A DNA stretch of 35,262 bases from Pseudomonadota bacterium (GTDB lineage: Bacteria > Bdellovibrionota_B > Oligoflexia > Oligoflexales > CAIYRB01): positions 1 through 35,262 of the forward strand of contig JAPLFY010000097.1 of NCBI GenBank assembly GCA_026390435.1. The letters run 5' to 3'. The translations under genes were made by a program, and so were the position numbers. Under the pieces are notes generated by a model. It searched no databases. It was given only the letters and a program-made list of their open reading frames with translations, and was not told the origin of the DNA. The first letter of the stretch is position 1. Each line of letters starts with the position of its first letter. Below are positions 10,550 through 27,682 of the stretch, in pieces.

Positions 10550-11971
10550 ATGGCATCCACCTCAAGAAGCTTGAGTAAAACAATGGCCGCAGCCAAGTAC
10601 ATGGGTCGTATTTTGCTCGTCGACGACGACGAGTTGGTGACGCAGTTTTACGAGACCTTTCTGACTGCTGCAGGATTCATCACTCATACCAGCCGTGATC
10701 TCAAATCAACCAAAGAACTATTAACCCAGTACTACTTTGACGCGGTGCTGCTCGACCTACAGCTGGGTCATGAAGAGGGAACGAACGGCTTACCATTTAT
10801 CCTGAAAATGACGCCTTCGACTAAAGTGTTCATTCTCACCTCATACGGTTCGATCGAGCGCGCGGTCGAGTGTATGCGACGCGGTGCCACTGGATTTTTT
10901 GCCAAAGGTACTGAGCCTGAGAAGATTCTGGCGGAAATTAACGCCCATTTGACGCCTCCTTTTAAAGAATCCTTTCAACTTACGGCAGATCATCGGAAGG
11001 CTCTCGGACTGGTTGGCGAAAGCAACGCCATCAAAGAAATGCTGACGATGATCGACAAGATTCGCAAAGTCGACTCGACTGTCCTCATTCTAGGCGAATC
11101 TGGTACCGGTAAAGAGGTGGTGGCTCGAGCTATCCACCAAACTTCGCTGCGCGCCACGGAACGTTTTAACGCCATCAATTGCGGTGCGATTCCAGAACAG
11201 TTGCTTGAGTCTGAACTATTCGGCCATCGCAAGGGCAGCTTCACCGACGCTAAATGTGATCGCAAGGGAATCTTTGAAGTGTGCTCCTCCGGCACACTGC
11301 TGCTCGATGAAATCGGCGACATGCCACTGGCGTTGCAGACCAAACTGCTGCGCGTCCTGCAGGAAAGACAAGTAACACCAATTGGCTCCAGTACACCGAT
11401 CAACATCAGTACTAGGGTTATTGCGGCGACGCACCGCGACATCTTAGACGAAGCAAAAAGCAAGCGCTTCCGCGAAGACCTCTACTACCGTTTATCGGTG
11501 GTAGTGATCCGGATTCCACCGCTGCGGCACCGAATTGAAGATATTCCGCATTTGACGAATCATTTTTTGGAGCAGTTCAACCAGCGTTTTGCCAAGACGG
11601 TGCGGCCACCCAGCCCCGCTGTGCTGGCGCGTCTGATGGCCTATGATTGGCCGGGCAACGTGCGAGAGCTCCAAAATGCAATTGAGCGCGCAGTGGTACT
11701 ATCTATCGACGACGAGCTGTGTATCAACGACGTGTTCCAGCACCTAAATCTGAAAGCGGGTATCCCGGCACCAGAGGAAGGCCTAAACAGGTCAGTATTT
11801 GTATTGCCGCTTACGGAAGCGAAGCAGTGCTTCGAGAAGACCTATATAGAGAATCTGCTGCACTTGAGTGGCGGTAATATTTCTGAAGCTGCACGCATCT
11901 CAGGACGCTATAGAGCAGACATCTACCGACTCATGAACCGATACGGCTTCGACAGAGGGAGCTTTCGTTAA
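10550..11971 (+). CDS. NtrC-family sigma-54-dependent response regulator
   Basis: Phosphorylation-controlled activator of sigma-54 RNA polymerase. Domains in order: receiver (about 19-135) with VDDDE, phospho-acceptor Asp69 (LLDLQL), ILTSYG and FAKG; AAA+ domain (about 150-375) with Walker A GESGTGKE, Walker B LLLDEIGDM, and arginine-finger region FREDLYYRL; C-terminal Fis-type helix-turn-helix (about 425-470; GGNISEAARISGRYRADIYR). The sigma-54-contacting GAFTGA loop reads GSFTDA (229-234), keeping Phe and Thr but changing Ala2 and Gly5. The ATG at 10550 lacks a clear ribosome-binding site; ATGs at 10583 and 10601 are alternatives. The HPt gene starts at the very next base after the stop. 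Two sigma-54 promoters lie downstream at 12377 and 14219. Confidence 0.93.
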   Translation: MASTSRSLSKTMAAAKYMGRILLVDDDELVTQFYETFLTAAGFITHTSRDLKSTKELLTQYYFDAVLLDLQLGHEEGTNGLPFILKMTPSTKVFILTSYGSIERAVECMRRGATGFFAKGTEPEKILAEINAHLTPPFKESFQLTADHRKALGLVGESNAIKEMLTMIDKIRKVDSTVLILGESGTGKEVVARAIHQTSLRATERFNAINCGAIPEQLLESELFGHRKGSFTDAKCDRKGIFEVCSSGTLLLDEIGDMPLALQTKLLRVLQERQVTPIGSSTPINISTRVIAATHRDILDEAKSKRFREDLYYRLSVVVIRIPPLRHRIEDIPHLTNHFLEQFNQRFAKTVRPPSPAVLARLMAYDWPGNVRELQNAIERAVVLSIDDELCINDVFQHLNLKAGIPAPEEGLNRSVFVLPLTEAKQCFEKTYIENLLHLSGGNISEAARISGRYRADIYRLMNRYGFDRGSFR

Positions 11972-12325
11972 ATGCCGGACGTAGATCCTCCGACAACGGA
12001 AAGTGACGGCGAAAGAGTCGTCCAGCCCCCCGCGCAATTACGCTCTCGCTACGCTGACCATCAATTACTTGGACCGTTAGTAGTTGAGTATGTGGCGGCA
12101 CTGCCGGAAATTCTCGCACAAATCACCCGCGCTTTTGAAGCCAACGAATTCGCCGAATTAAAGCGCCTTTGCCATCGGGTTTGCGGCGAAGCGGCGACAT
12201 TTGGCTTCGAACAGCTTGCGCTCGCGGCTAGAAGACTCGAAATAGCTACTGCACATAGCGACCTTGAAGACTTACGTGATGCACAGTCGTCCCTCATGGA
12301 CTGCAGCCGACGGATTGCGGTTTAG
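11972..12325 (+). CDS. HPt-domain phosphotransfer protein
   Basis: A 117-residue helical protein whose second half is a histidine phosphotransfer domain: RLCHRVCGEAATFGFEQLA, with His68 in the place of the phospho-accepting histidine of the HxxKG motif (here H-R-V-C-G). The first 25 residues are polar and Pro-rich. The ATG directly follows the stop codon of the NtrC-family regulator, so translation is coupled and the two probably act together in one phosphorelay. It is followed by a gene-free stretch of about 450 bases with a sigma-54 promoter. Confidence 0.78.
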   Translation: MPDVDPPTTESDGERVVQPPAQLRSRYADHQLLGPLVVEYVAALPEILAQITRAFEANEFAELKRLCHRVCGEAATFGFEQLALAARRLEIATAHSDLEDLRDAQSSLMDCSRRIAV

Positions 12326-12376: not shown

Positions 12377-12392
12377 TGGCACACAGATTGCT
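12377..12392 (+). promoter_or_regulatory. sigma-54 promoter
   Basis: TGGCACACAGATTGCT matches the -24/-12 consensus (TGGCACG-N4-TTGCW) at every position except the G after TGGCAC, with GG and GC separated by exactly ten bases. Transcription would begin near 12403, about 50 bases past the HPt stop. The nearest annotated gene on this strand starts 380 bases on, with structured sequence in between. Confidence 0.72.
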
Positions 12393-12402
12393 AAGAGGAA
12401 AC

Positions 12403-12535
12403 CACCGCTAGGCAGGCACAGTGATCCCCTCACGAACAAACCTGTCACCAACCGCCTAGCGAAATGAATCCGTGGGAGCCTATTTGGCGATCCGCGTTGG
12501 TGTGGGTGGTGCGTTCATGGCGCACCACCCACAAT
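12403..12535 (+). ncRNA. candidate sigma-54-driven small RNA or structured leader
   Basis: The segment beginning at the predicted sigma-54 start can fold into a long-range stem (CGCTAGGC 12406-12413 with GCCTAGCG 12454-12461) enclosing a small GTGA/TCAC hairpin (12421-12433), and ends in a 13-bp perfect hairpin at 12501-12533. No convincing ribosome-binding site or reading frame fills it. It could be a free RNA of about 130 bases or the 5' leader of the receiver gene at 12784. The end is a guess, since no T-tract follows the last hairpin. Confidence 0.4.
12501..12533 (+). terminator. strong hairpin, possible terminator
   Basis: TGTGGGTGGTGCG (12501-12513) and its exact reverse complement (12521-12533) flank a seven-base loop, a very stable 13-bp stem. 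No run of Ts follows on either strand, so it may be a processing or attenuation structure or a transcript end stabiliser instead of a classical intrinsic terminator. Confidence 0.45.
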
Positions 12536-12612
12536 GCATTTAAGGGCCTCTCATCCGCACCTATGTATGATGACTACATGATCTGTCATAACTGTAACTA
12601 ATCACCATCATC

Positions 12613-12630
12613 TGTAGGATTTTTCCTACA
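12613..12630. promoter_or_regulatory. 18-bp palindrome resembling a GacA/UvrY-type box
   Basis: TGTAGGATTTTTCCTACA is a perfect dyad (7-bp arms, 4-base centre). Its form TGTAGG-N6-CCTACA closely resembles the TGTAAG-N6-CTTACA site of the GacA/UvrY group of NarL-type regulators. As RNA it could also form a hairpin. It is 154 bases before the receiver gene at 12784 and downstream of the sigma-54 promoter at 12377. No NarL-type regulator is encoded in the window. Confidence 0.45.
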
Positions 12631-12666
12631 ATAACTGACGCCACCGAAACAGACTGGCCGGCCAAT

Positions 12667-12750
12667 ATGCTAGCTGACGAGGTTCAAGACGAAACTGAAT
12701 ACATGGAATGGATTTTGCAGAGTGCCAAAATGACCCATGTTCATACGTAA
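12667..12750 (+). CDS. possible 27-residue small protein
   Basis: An ATG-to-TAA frame encoding an acidic peptide beginning MLADEVQDETEYMEW. It lies in the leader of the receiver gene at 12784 and ends 33 bases before it. There is no convincing Shine-Dalgarno sequence (only GGCCGG at the right distance) and nothing to compare it with, so it could be a chance frame or an upstream regulatory peptide. Confidence 0.2.
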   Translation: MLADEVQDETEYMEWILQSAKMTHVHT

Positions 12751-12783: not shown

Positions 12784-13248
12784 ATGTACTGGTTAGAAAA
12801 CAACCTTAGAGAGCAGAAGGGTCTTATACAACCGAGCGTGATCCTTTATCGTAAAAAGGGCCTTCTGCTAATTGACGATGATGAGTGGTTCCGCTCATTA
12901 TTTCGCCTAATATGCGAGGCCCAAGGCATTCCCGTCACTGCGTATGCGTCACTCGCGGACATGCCTTCATTTGCTTCGCTCCAAGACTACGATGTGGTGA
13001 TTCTCGACTATTATCTTGAGTCCTTTAAAGGACCCGAGATAGCTGAATACATTGACGTGTTCTTTGATGATCTGCCCGTCGTGGTCATTAGCGGTGCGGA
13101 CATCAGCGCGACTGAGCGCCAAACTTGGCCCCGCTGTATCCGAAGCTTTCAGTGTAAAAAGGAGGGTGCACACTCCATCCTAGAAAATGCTCTTGAGCTG
13201 CTCAACGGAAATTGGCTCCCTAAAGCACAGGCTGCCAACCTGAATTAA
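12784..13248 (+). CDS. single-domain response regulator, paralogue of 13299-13799
   Basis: A 154-residue receiver-only protein. Active-site residues: DDDE at 31-34, phospho-acceptor Asp75 (VILDYYLES), Ser103 (VVISGAD) and Lys125/126 (QCKKEG). It differs from standard CheY proteins in the region after the acceptor, where the motif KGPEIAEYIDVF replaces the usual MPxMdG loop; the next gene has the matching RGDELAEYLDMF. These two proteins are therefore close paralogues with an unusual beta3-alpha3 loop and alpha3-alpha4 face. AGGAG lies seven bases before the ATG. No output domain is present. The partner is probably one of the two local HPt proteins. Confidence 0.85.
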   Translation: MYWLENNLREQKGLIQPSVILYRKKGLLLIDDDEWFRSLFRLICEAQGIPVTAYASLADMPSFASLQDYDVVILDYYLESFKGPEIAEYIDVFFDDLPVVVISGADISATERQTWPRCIRSFQCKKEGAHSILENALELLNGNWLPKAQAANLN

Positions 13249-13298: not shown

Positions 13299-13799
13299 AT
13301 GACTACGAACACAGCTAATTCCAAGATTCAGCAACAGCCGCCACAAGATAAACTGGTCATCTTCGATGATGATCCCTATTTTGGAGCATTGATTTCAGCG
13401 ACTGCACGCAATTTCGGCTTTGCCCCCAATTATTTCCAGTCGCTCTACGCAATGGGAAATTTCGCCCGCATCAAGGACTATGACATCGCCATCATTGATG
13501 TTTATATGGACTCGATCAGAGGCGATGAGTTAGCAGAATATCTCGATATGTTTGTCGTCCAGGTCCCAGTCGTACTCGTGAGCGGTAAAGATTTTAACCT
13601 GGAACACCAGAGCGCGGAATGGCCCTCGTCAGTGCGTGCGTTTATTCACAAGTCGGAAGGGCCATACCAGATTTTAGCTACTACGCGCGCCGTGCTCCAG
13701 CGTGACCGGCTGTTAAAGCGCCTGGCTGCAGGCGGGCATCCCCACGGGCTCGGTATTGTTAGTGATCTAGACCAAGCATCGCCAGGTGGCATAGCCTAG
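13299..13799 (+). CDS. single-domain response regulator, paralogue of 12784-13248
   Basis: A 166-residue protein with one receiver domain: FDDDPYF, phospho-acceptor Asp67 (AIIDVYMDS), Ser95 (VLVSGKD) and Lys118 (IHKSEG). Like its neighbour it has the RGDELAEYLDMF segment after the acceptor. The N-terminal 17 residues are Gln/Asn-rich and likely flexible; a 45-residue C-terminal extension is basic then glycine-rich. GAGGAG is eight bases before the ATG, inside the leader ORF at 13267-13296. Its last 41 bases overlap the convergent HPt gene, so the two transcripts are antisense at their 3' ends. Confidence 0.85.
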   Translation: MTTNTANSKIQQQPPQDKLVIFDDDPYFGALISATARNFGFAPNYFQSLYAMGNFARIKDYDIAIIDVYMDSIRGDELAEYLDMFVVQVPVVLVSGKDFNLEHQSAEWPSSVRAFIHKSEGPYQILATTRAVLQRDRLLKRLAAGGHPHGLGIVSDLDQASPGGIA

Positions 13800-14094
13800 C
13801 GATCTGCTCCAACAGAATACTAGCCTTAGTTAAATCAATGCCGCCCTTGAGTTCATCCTCTAACGTCTGCGCCAGGCTACCAATTTGCGGGTAGCCGTAG
13901 CCGCCAGCAGTGCCCTTCAAATCGTGACAAACTTTCGCGGCAGCAGCGACATCTCCTGCGCCGAGTGCAACACGCAGCCGCTCGACATATTTGGGCAAGT
14001 TGTCCACGAAAGCTGGCAGGATCTCCGCAATTAATTCGTCATCAGCAAATAGTGATTTTATCGGAAAACTATCGTTTTGAAGATCCGAGATCAT
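13759..14094 (-). CDS. HPt-domain phosphotransfer protein
   Basis: A 111-residue, all-helical histidine phosphotransfer protein with the classical motif KVCHDLKGTAGGYGYPQIG; His57 is the expected phospho-acceptor and the GTAGGYG segment forms the conserved turn beside it. It is a stand-alone HPt protein, so its donors and acceptors must be separate proteins, such as the nearby receivers. AAGGA is eight bases before the ATG. It is divergent from the OmpA-family lipoprotein gene and overlaps the preceding receiver gene by 41 bases at the 3' end. Confidence 0.88.
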   Translation of the reverse strand: MISDLQNDSFPIKSLFADDELIAEILPAFVDNLPKYVERLRVALGAGDVAAAAKVCHDLKGTAGGYGYPQIGSLAQTLEDELKGGIDLTKASILLEQIARLCHLAMLGLDH

Positions 14095-14218: not shown

Positions 14219-14234
14219 TGGCATTCCGCTTGCA
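14219..14234 (+). promoter_or_regulatory. sigma-54 promoter of the OmpA-family lipoprotein gene
   Basis: TGGCATTCCGCTTGCA keeps TGGCA, the ten-base GG-GC spacing and TTGCA of the sigma-54 consensus. The start of transcription would be near 14246, 35 bases before the ATG at 14281. An interrupted repeat TGCAT-N9-ATGCA (14131-14149), about 70 bases upstream, is a possible activator site. Confidence 0.7.

Positions 14235-26989: not shown

Positions 26990-27682
<693 letters not shown>

Follow-up and report, generated by a model that had tools for sequence, protein, structure and literature searches.

A candidate sigma-54-dependent small RNA gene beside a GlrR-like activator in an uncultured lake bacterium

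Introduction

The gene order luxO-luxU-qrr1 places a small RNA gene next to those of an activator and its phosphotransfer partner. The Qrr RNAs of Vibrio are sigma-54-dependent and are under the control of the NtrC-type regulator LuxO and its partner, the HPt protein LuxU (PMC10162802). In Enterobacteriaceae, glmY adjoins qseEGF and encodes a small RNA driven by the neighbouring sigma-54 activator QseF/GlrR, the consensus site of which is TGT-N12-ACA (PMC6075780), and in Pseudomonadaceae, crcZ is a separate sigma-54-dependent unit downstream of cbrB (PMC8871633).

Here, we describe a locus of comparable layout on contig C97 (35,262 nucleotides, analysed in full and referred to as the window) from the 4.28-Mb genome of an uncultured lake bacterium. 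With the GlmY system it shares a GlrR-type receiver-AAA+-HTH activator, a sigma-54 promoter, a (candidate) small RNA gene beside the activator operon and TGT-N12-ACA sites at the locus. It differs in the adjacent HPt gene, in the location of the activator-type sites, which do not lie upstream of the RNA promoter, and in the regulator itself, for which GlrR/QseF (NCBIfam PRK15115) is the best-scoring family but at 376.5 bits, far below the 763-bit equivalog cut-off. As with Qrr, an NtrC-type activator, an HPt protein and a sigma-54-dependent RNA would occur together; however, the regulator falls short of the LuxO cut-off (318.8 versus 800 bits), the HPt protein has no match to the NCBIfam LuxU family and the RNA is present in a single copy. 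As with CrcZ, the RNA would form a separate unit 3' of an NtrC-family activator gene, but CrcZ, to which it has no sequence relation, is a decoy for Crc/Hfq, whereas Hfq was not detected here. Searches of Rfam at gathering and relaxed thresholds, covering GlmY/GlmZ and Qrr, yielded nothing above chance.

The comparison set comprised six genomes of the genus, namely, that of the window (G000) and five genus mates (G001 to G005), along with a relative from the same family (G006); the near relatives are assemblies from environmental samples.

Results

The activator and HPt genes are followed by the sequence TGGCACACAGATTGC (Table 1), which had been predicted to be a near-perfect -24/-12 element and is in fact the sole zero-mismatch instance of TGGCAC-N5-TTGC in the window. 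Matches with two mismatches occur in the window at chance level (45 observed versus 44 expected). Across the six genus genomes, TTGGCACN5TTGCW was found at 52 sites, compared with 1 for the reversed control pattern, so the exact match at 12377 is very unlikely to be fortuitous. This enrichment, together with the presence of RpoN in all five genomes tested, indicates that the site is very probably a genuine sigma-54 promoter, as judged from its sequence. The element is identical in G002 and reads TGGCAT-N5-TTGC in G004 and G005, overlapping the 3' end of the activator ORF in the latter two; it scores high in each of the four genomes that carry the RNA, despite differing sequence contexts. A -24/-12 promoter with GG-N10-GC spacing directly 5' of the RNA is what a sigma-54-dependent small RNA gene should display. 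A search for the promoter string in viral contigs found none.

Table 1. Features of the locus and of its counterparts in related genomes. Positions without a prefix refer to the window.
Feature	Position	Strand	Remarks
Sigma-54 activator (receiver, AAA+, Fis-type HTH)	10550-11971	+	best NCBIfam match GlrR, below cut-off
HPt phosphotransfer protein	11972-12325	+	PF01627, E 1.4e-10
Sigma-54 promoter, TGGCAC-N5-TTGC	12377-12391	+	GG 12378-12379, GC 12390-12391; predicted start ~12403
Candidate small RNA, ~140 nt (~75-80 nt in G004/G005)	12403-12545	+	fold z, G002 identity, covariance-model matches
Stem-loop 1, CGCTAGGC...GCCTAGCG	12406-12461	+	G000/G002 only
Stem-loop 2, CCGTGG...TCCGCG	12471-12496	+	conserved in G000/G002/G004/G005; TCCGCGTT invariant
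Alternative extension of terminal hairpin, terminator-like	12494-12537	+	GCGTT 12494-12498 with AATGC 12533-12537
Terminal hairpin, 13 bp, perfect	12501-12533	+	12 pairs conserved, 4 changed on both sides
Enhancer-like palindrome CTGTAGGATTTTTCCTACAA (12612-12631), preceded by degenerate copy CTGTAACTAATCACCATCAT (12592-12611)	12592-12631	.	
Weaker sigma-54 element of receiver gene, TGGAATGGATTTTGC	12704-12718	+	GG-N10-GC kept in G000 to G005
Stand-alone receiver protein, neighbouring transcription unit	12784-13248	+	
Sigma-54 element of OmpA-family gene (starts 14254), TGGCATTCCGCTTGC	14219-14233	+	element there in all six genus genomes
Activator without receiver domain	L039:6478-7482 (-), L040:5858-6835 (-)		G004/G005
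Minus-strand ORF in place of RNA, 122 aa	L036:4629-4997 (-), L038:5493-5861 (+)		G001/G003

The predicted RNA (12403-12545) has a folding energy of -62.1 kcal/mol, which corresponds to z = -4.8 relative to 200 shuffled sequences. As proposed originally, the transcript would open with a long-range stem, formed by 12406-12413 and 12454-12461, and run into a perfect 13-bp hairpin with arms at 12501-12513 and 12521-12533. The latter, listed in two loop registers, is unique in the window as a perfect short-loop hairpin of at least 10 bp, and shuffled sequences contained none. The original description is accurate; the end of the segment had been set at 12535, and the RNA probably reaches ~12545. The terminal hairpin can be extended by a pairing that shares GCG (12494-12496) with stem-loop 2 and sits just 5' of a T-rich stretch. 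In the four genomes, GCGTT pairs with AATGC, GGCGC or AGTGC, with all cells paired and each pairing located just before a T-rich stretch, which favours termination at this point. Because the extension competes with stem-loop 2, the structure may still act as a conditional terminator. In G000 the hairpin is followed by a weak U-tract (ATTTAAGG), in G004 and G005 by TTTT or TTTTT; the terminator scan did not list the hairpin.

No convincing gene occupies the segment, in agreement with the original prediction, and the next one downstream begins at 12784. The one notable plus-strand ORF, of 45 codons from an ATG at ~12464, is hardly credible as a short protein-coding gene and was rejected as such: its frame is open in G000 and still open in G002, but G002 has ATA in place of the start codon, G004 and G005 have no matching frame, and the differences between G000 and G002 mostly spare the RNA pairs. 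Thus, the segment holds a compact conserved RNA structure and no conserved ORF, as would a sigma-54-dependent small RNA gene. Elsewhere in the window, an ORF at 26990-27682 contains a low-complexity (SG)n stretch.

DNA similarity finds the segment only in G002 (92%), and synteny adds G004 and G005, where the promoter and hairpins are located between a GlrR/NtrC-type activator gene and the receiver gene; the RNA is thus found at the same place in three of the five genus mates. Downstream of the sigma-54 element, G004 and G005 carry a stem, CCGCGGAA...TTCCGCG, and then a 12-bp hairpin, GTGGGYGGCGTA...TACGCCRCCCAC. Covariation is supported by four sequences, which represent two close pairs: in their alignment, 18 pairs are formed in 100% of cells, compared with 24-56% in slid controls, and 4 of the 12 pairs of the terminal hairpin have changed on both sides, with pairing kept in every cell. 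The retention of the fold in close relatives while the letters change suggests that the segment probably encodes a small regulatory RNA. Between the two species pairs, conservation of the RNA does not extend beyond stem-loop 2 and the terminal hairpin.

Within the closer pair, the RNA is 93.7% identical between G000 and G002, compared with 81-86% for two of the surrounding spacers and ~82-83% for third codon positions of the neighbouring genes. Seven of the 9 differences in the RNA fall at unpaired positions; of the paired ones, one turns a G-U into an A-U pair and the other breaks the innermost base pair in the terminal hairpin. So few changes at paired positions have a probability of 0.047 by chance, a pattern which is supportive of the predicted fold but not strong on its own.

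A covariance model gave strong matches in four of the six genus genomes (G000, G002, G004 and G005), at a single place in each, and the single copy led us to reject a dispersed repeat. In the 43 genomes of the order that were searched, nothing convincing was found beyond these four, the further matches being a weak one and the reverse strand of the palindrome itself. Weak matches of an earlier model in G001 and G003 fell in a shared, protein-coding-looking stretch, and other weak matches were judged unconvincing. In G006, a sigma-54 element followed by a hairpin (GCTACCAC...GTGGTAGC) was observed at L041:9454-9600 (+), with the next gene starting at ~9603; this is possibly a comparable RNA or leader of unrelated sequence.

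G001 and G003 retain the activator, HPt and receiver genes and lack the RNA. Absence of the promoter and stems from relatives that keep the neighbouring genes had been named as evidence against the original prediction, and this is partly what was found: the conservation expected of promoter and stems holds for G002, G004 and G005 and fails for G001 and G003, with stem-loop 1 confined to G000 and G002, so that conservation is patchy within the genus. The gap in G001 and G003 holds a minus-strand ORF of 122 codons, with 84% protein identity between the two species and a sigma-54-like GGGCAT-N5-TTGC element upstream. The product has a hydrophobic stretch near its N-terminus. The 3' half of the ORF is antisense to the HPt gene, suggesting that the true gene may be shorter.

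The receiver gene has a sigma-54 element of its own, TGGAATGGATTTTGC in G000 and G002, TGGTATGAAAGTTGC in G004 and G005 and TGGAACGATTCTTGC in G001 and G003, at ~80 nt from the start codon (60 nt in G001 and G003). In G000 to G003, a TGTAG-N8-CTACA palindrome begins 72-91 nt 5' of this element; no convincing counterpart was found at the G004 and G005 locus. The palindrome fits the GlrR/QseF consensus, the same family that gives the best match to the activator. In G001 and G003, it also occurs 101 nt 5' of the element of the OmpA-family gene, which possibly belongs to the same regulon. Genus-wide, the combination of such a palindrome with a sigma-54 spacing motif occurs at control level outside the locus. 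Given the separate promoters, the palindrome and the GlrR match, we interpret the receiver gene, the OmpA-family gene and the RNA as adjacent but distinct units under sigma-54, with the terminal hairpin as the probable 3' end of the RNA. Between the receiver gene at 12784 and the OmpA-family gene, the 3' ends of a further receiver gene (13299-13799, +) and an HPt gene (13759-14094, -) overlap by ~40 bases (13759-13799).

These observations bear on whether the segment is a small RNA gene or a regulatory leader of the receiver gene, both of which had been proposed. The first proposal is strengthened by the conserved location, promoter and fold, the last with compensatory changes, in G002, G004 and G005, and we consider a stand-alone small RNA gene under sigma-54 at 12377-12545 the probable explanation, with the adjacent GlrR-like regulator as its most likely activator. 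The second, in which the receiver operon would have 12377 as a distal sigma-54 promoter, with stem-loop 2 and the extended hairpin acting through their shared GCG as a conditional terminator for read-through into 12784, appears unlikely. It would account for the conservation of both the terminal hairpin and the mutually exclusive stem and for the location of the RNA, where present, always directly 5' of the receiver gene (only ~190 nt away in G004 and G005). However, each of the six genomes provides the receiver gene with an element of its own, and four also with the enhancer palindrome, which favours a separate small RNA; furthermore, G001 and G003 manage without the RNA, and a 3-nt overlap between alternative stems could easily arise by chance.

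Somewhat less likely still, the hairpin may be a mere intrinsic terminator of the activator-HPt operon, with a weak or idle sigma-54 element and a functionless RNA. In all four genomes that have the hairpin, it does lie 3' of the operon end, and between the species pairs conservation is restricted to stem-loop 2 and the hairpin. Such a terminator would nonetheless explain neither the high-scoring promoter, maintained in four of four genomes in differing contexts, including overlap with the activator ORF in G004 and G005, nor the conservation of stem-loop 2 with its invariant TCCGCGTT, which goes beyond what a terminator needs.

Discussion

If the segment is indeed a small RNA gene, the sigma-54 form of RNA polymerase would occupy the promoter at 12377, and an AAA+ enhancer-binding protein would open it. 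The adjacent GlrR-like regulator, probably fed by the HPt protein, is the likely and natural candidate for this role. Transcription would begin at ~12403 and halt at the 12-13-bp hairpin, which could grow to 17 pairs if GCGUU paired with RRYGC immediately 5' of the U-rich stretch, and the released RNA would be ~140 nt long, or ~75-80 nt in G004 and G005.

Strict and relaxed searches for the TGT-N12-ACA palindrome 5' of the RNA promoter in the four genomes found nothing convincing. The sites precede the receiver promoter (G000 to G003) and the OmpA promoter (G001 and G003), and in G000 the nearest palindrome is found 222 nt 3' of the -12 element that belongs to the RNA promoter. The RNA may act downstream of the phosphorelay, as had been suggested. 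In G004 and G005, the activator starts directly with the AAA+ domain, the divergent neighbour being only ~210 bp away, and the receiver domain has been lost jointly with the HPt gene that would follow; because these genomes keep the RNA, placing it downstream of a phosphorelay does not apply generally. The G005 activator carries an in-frame TAG.

By default, the RNA would probably base-pair with mRNAs encoded elsewhere, and would do so without Hfq: searches for Hfq and ProQ detected neither. CsrA is present, and a role as a CsrA sponge is unlikely given the single GGA motif in the RNA. The invariant UCCGCGUU is, from its conservation, the best candidate for a seed. A crude base-pairing check against the start regions of the genes in the window gave no meaningful result (best z -1.5), the program having scored long bulged duplexes.

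If it works as argued, the candidate RNA would function like GlmY, CrcZ and Qrr while standing outside their sequence families. More tentatively, the activator, HPt and small RNA genes might form a module that arose independently and is comparable to LuxO-LuxU-Qrr, in a lineage without detected Hfq or ProQ, with an RNA that ends in two mutually exclusive hairpins and whose place in G001 and G003 has been taken by a small-protein gene, divergently transcribed and with a sigma-54-like site of its own. The genus would offer a natural series on how such a module is assembled or lost, from the RNA with HPt, through the RNA without HPt or receiver domain, to the absence of the RNA, and the locus bears on how small RNAs might act where Hfq and ProQ are not found. 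It would add a lineage to a recurring design, known from GlmY, CrcZ and Qrr, in which the gene of a sigma-54 activator lies beside the small RNA that it probably drives.
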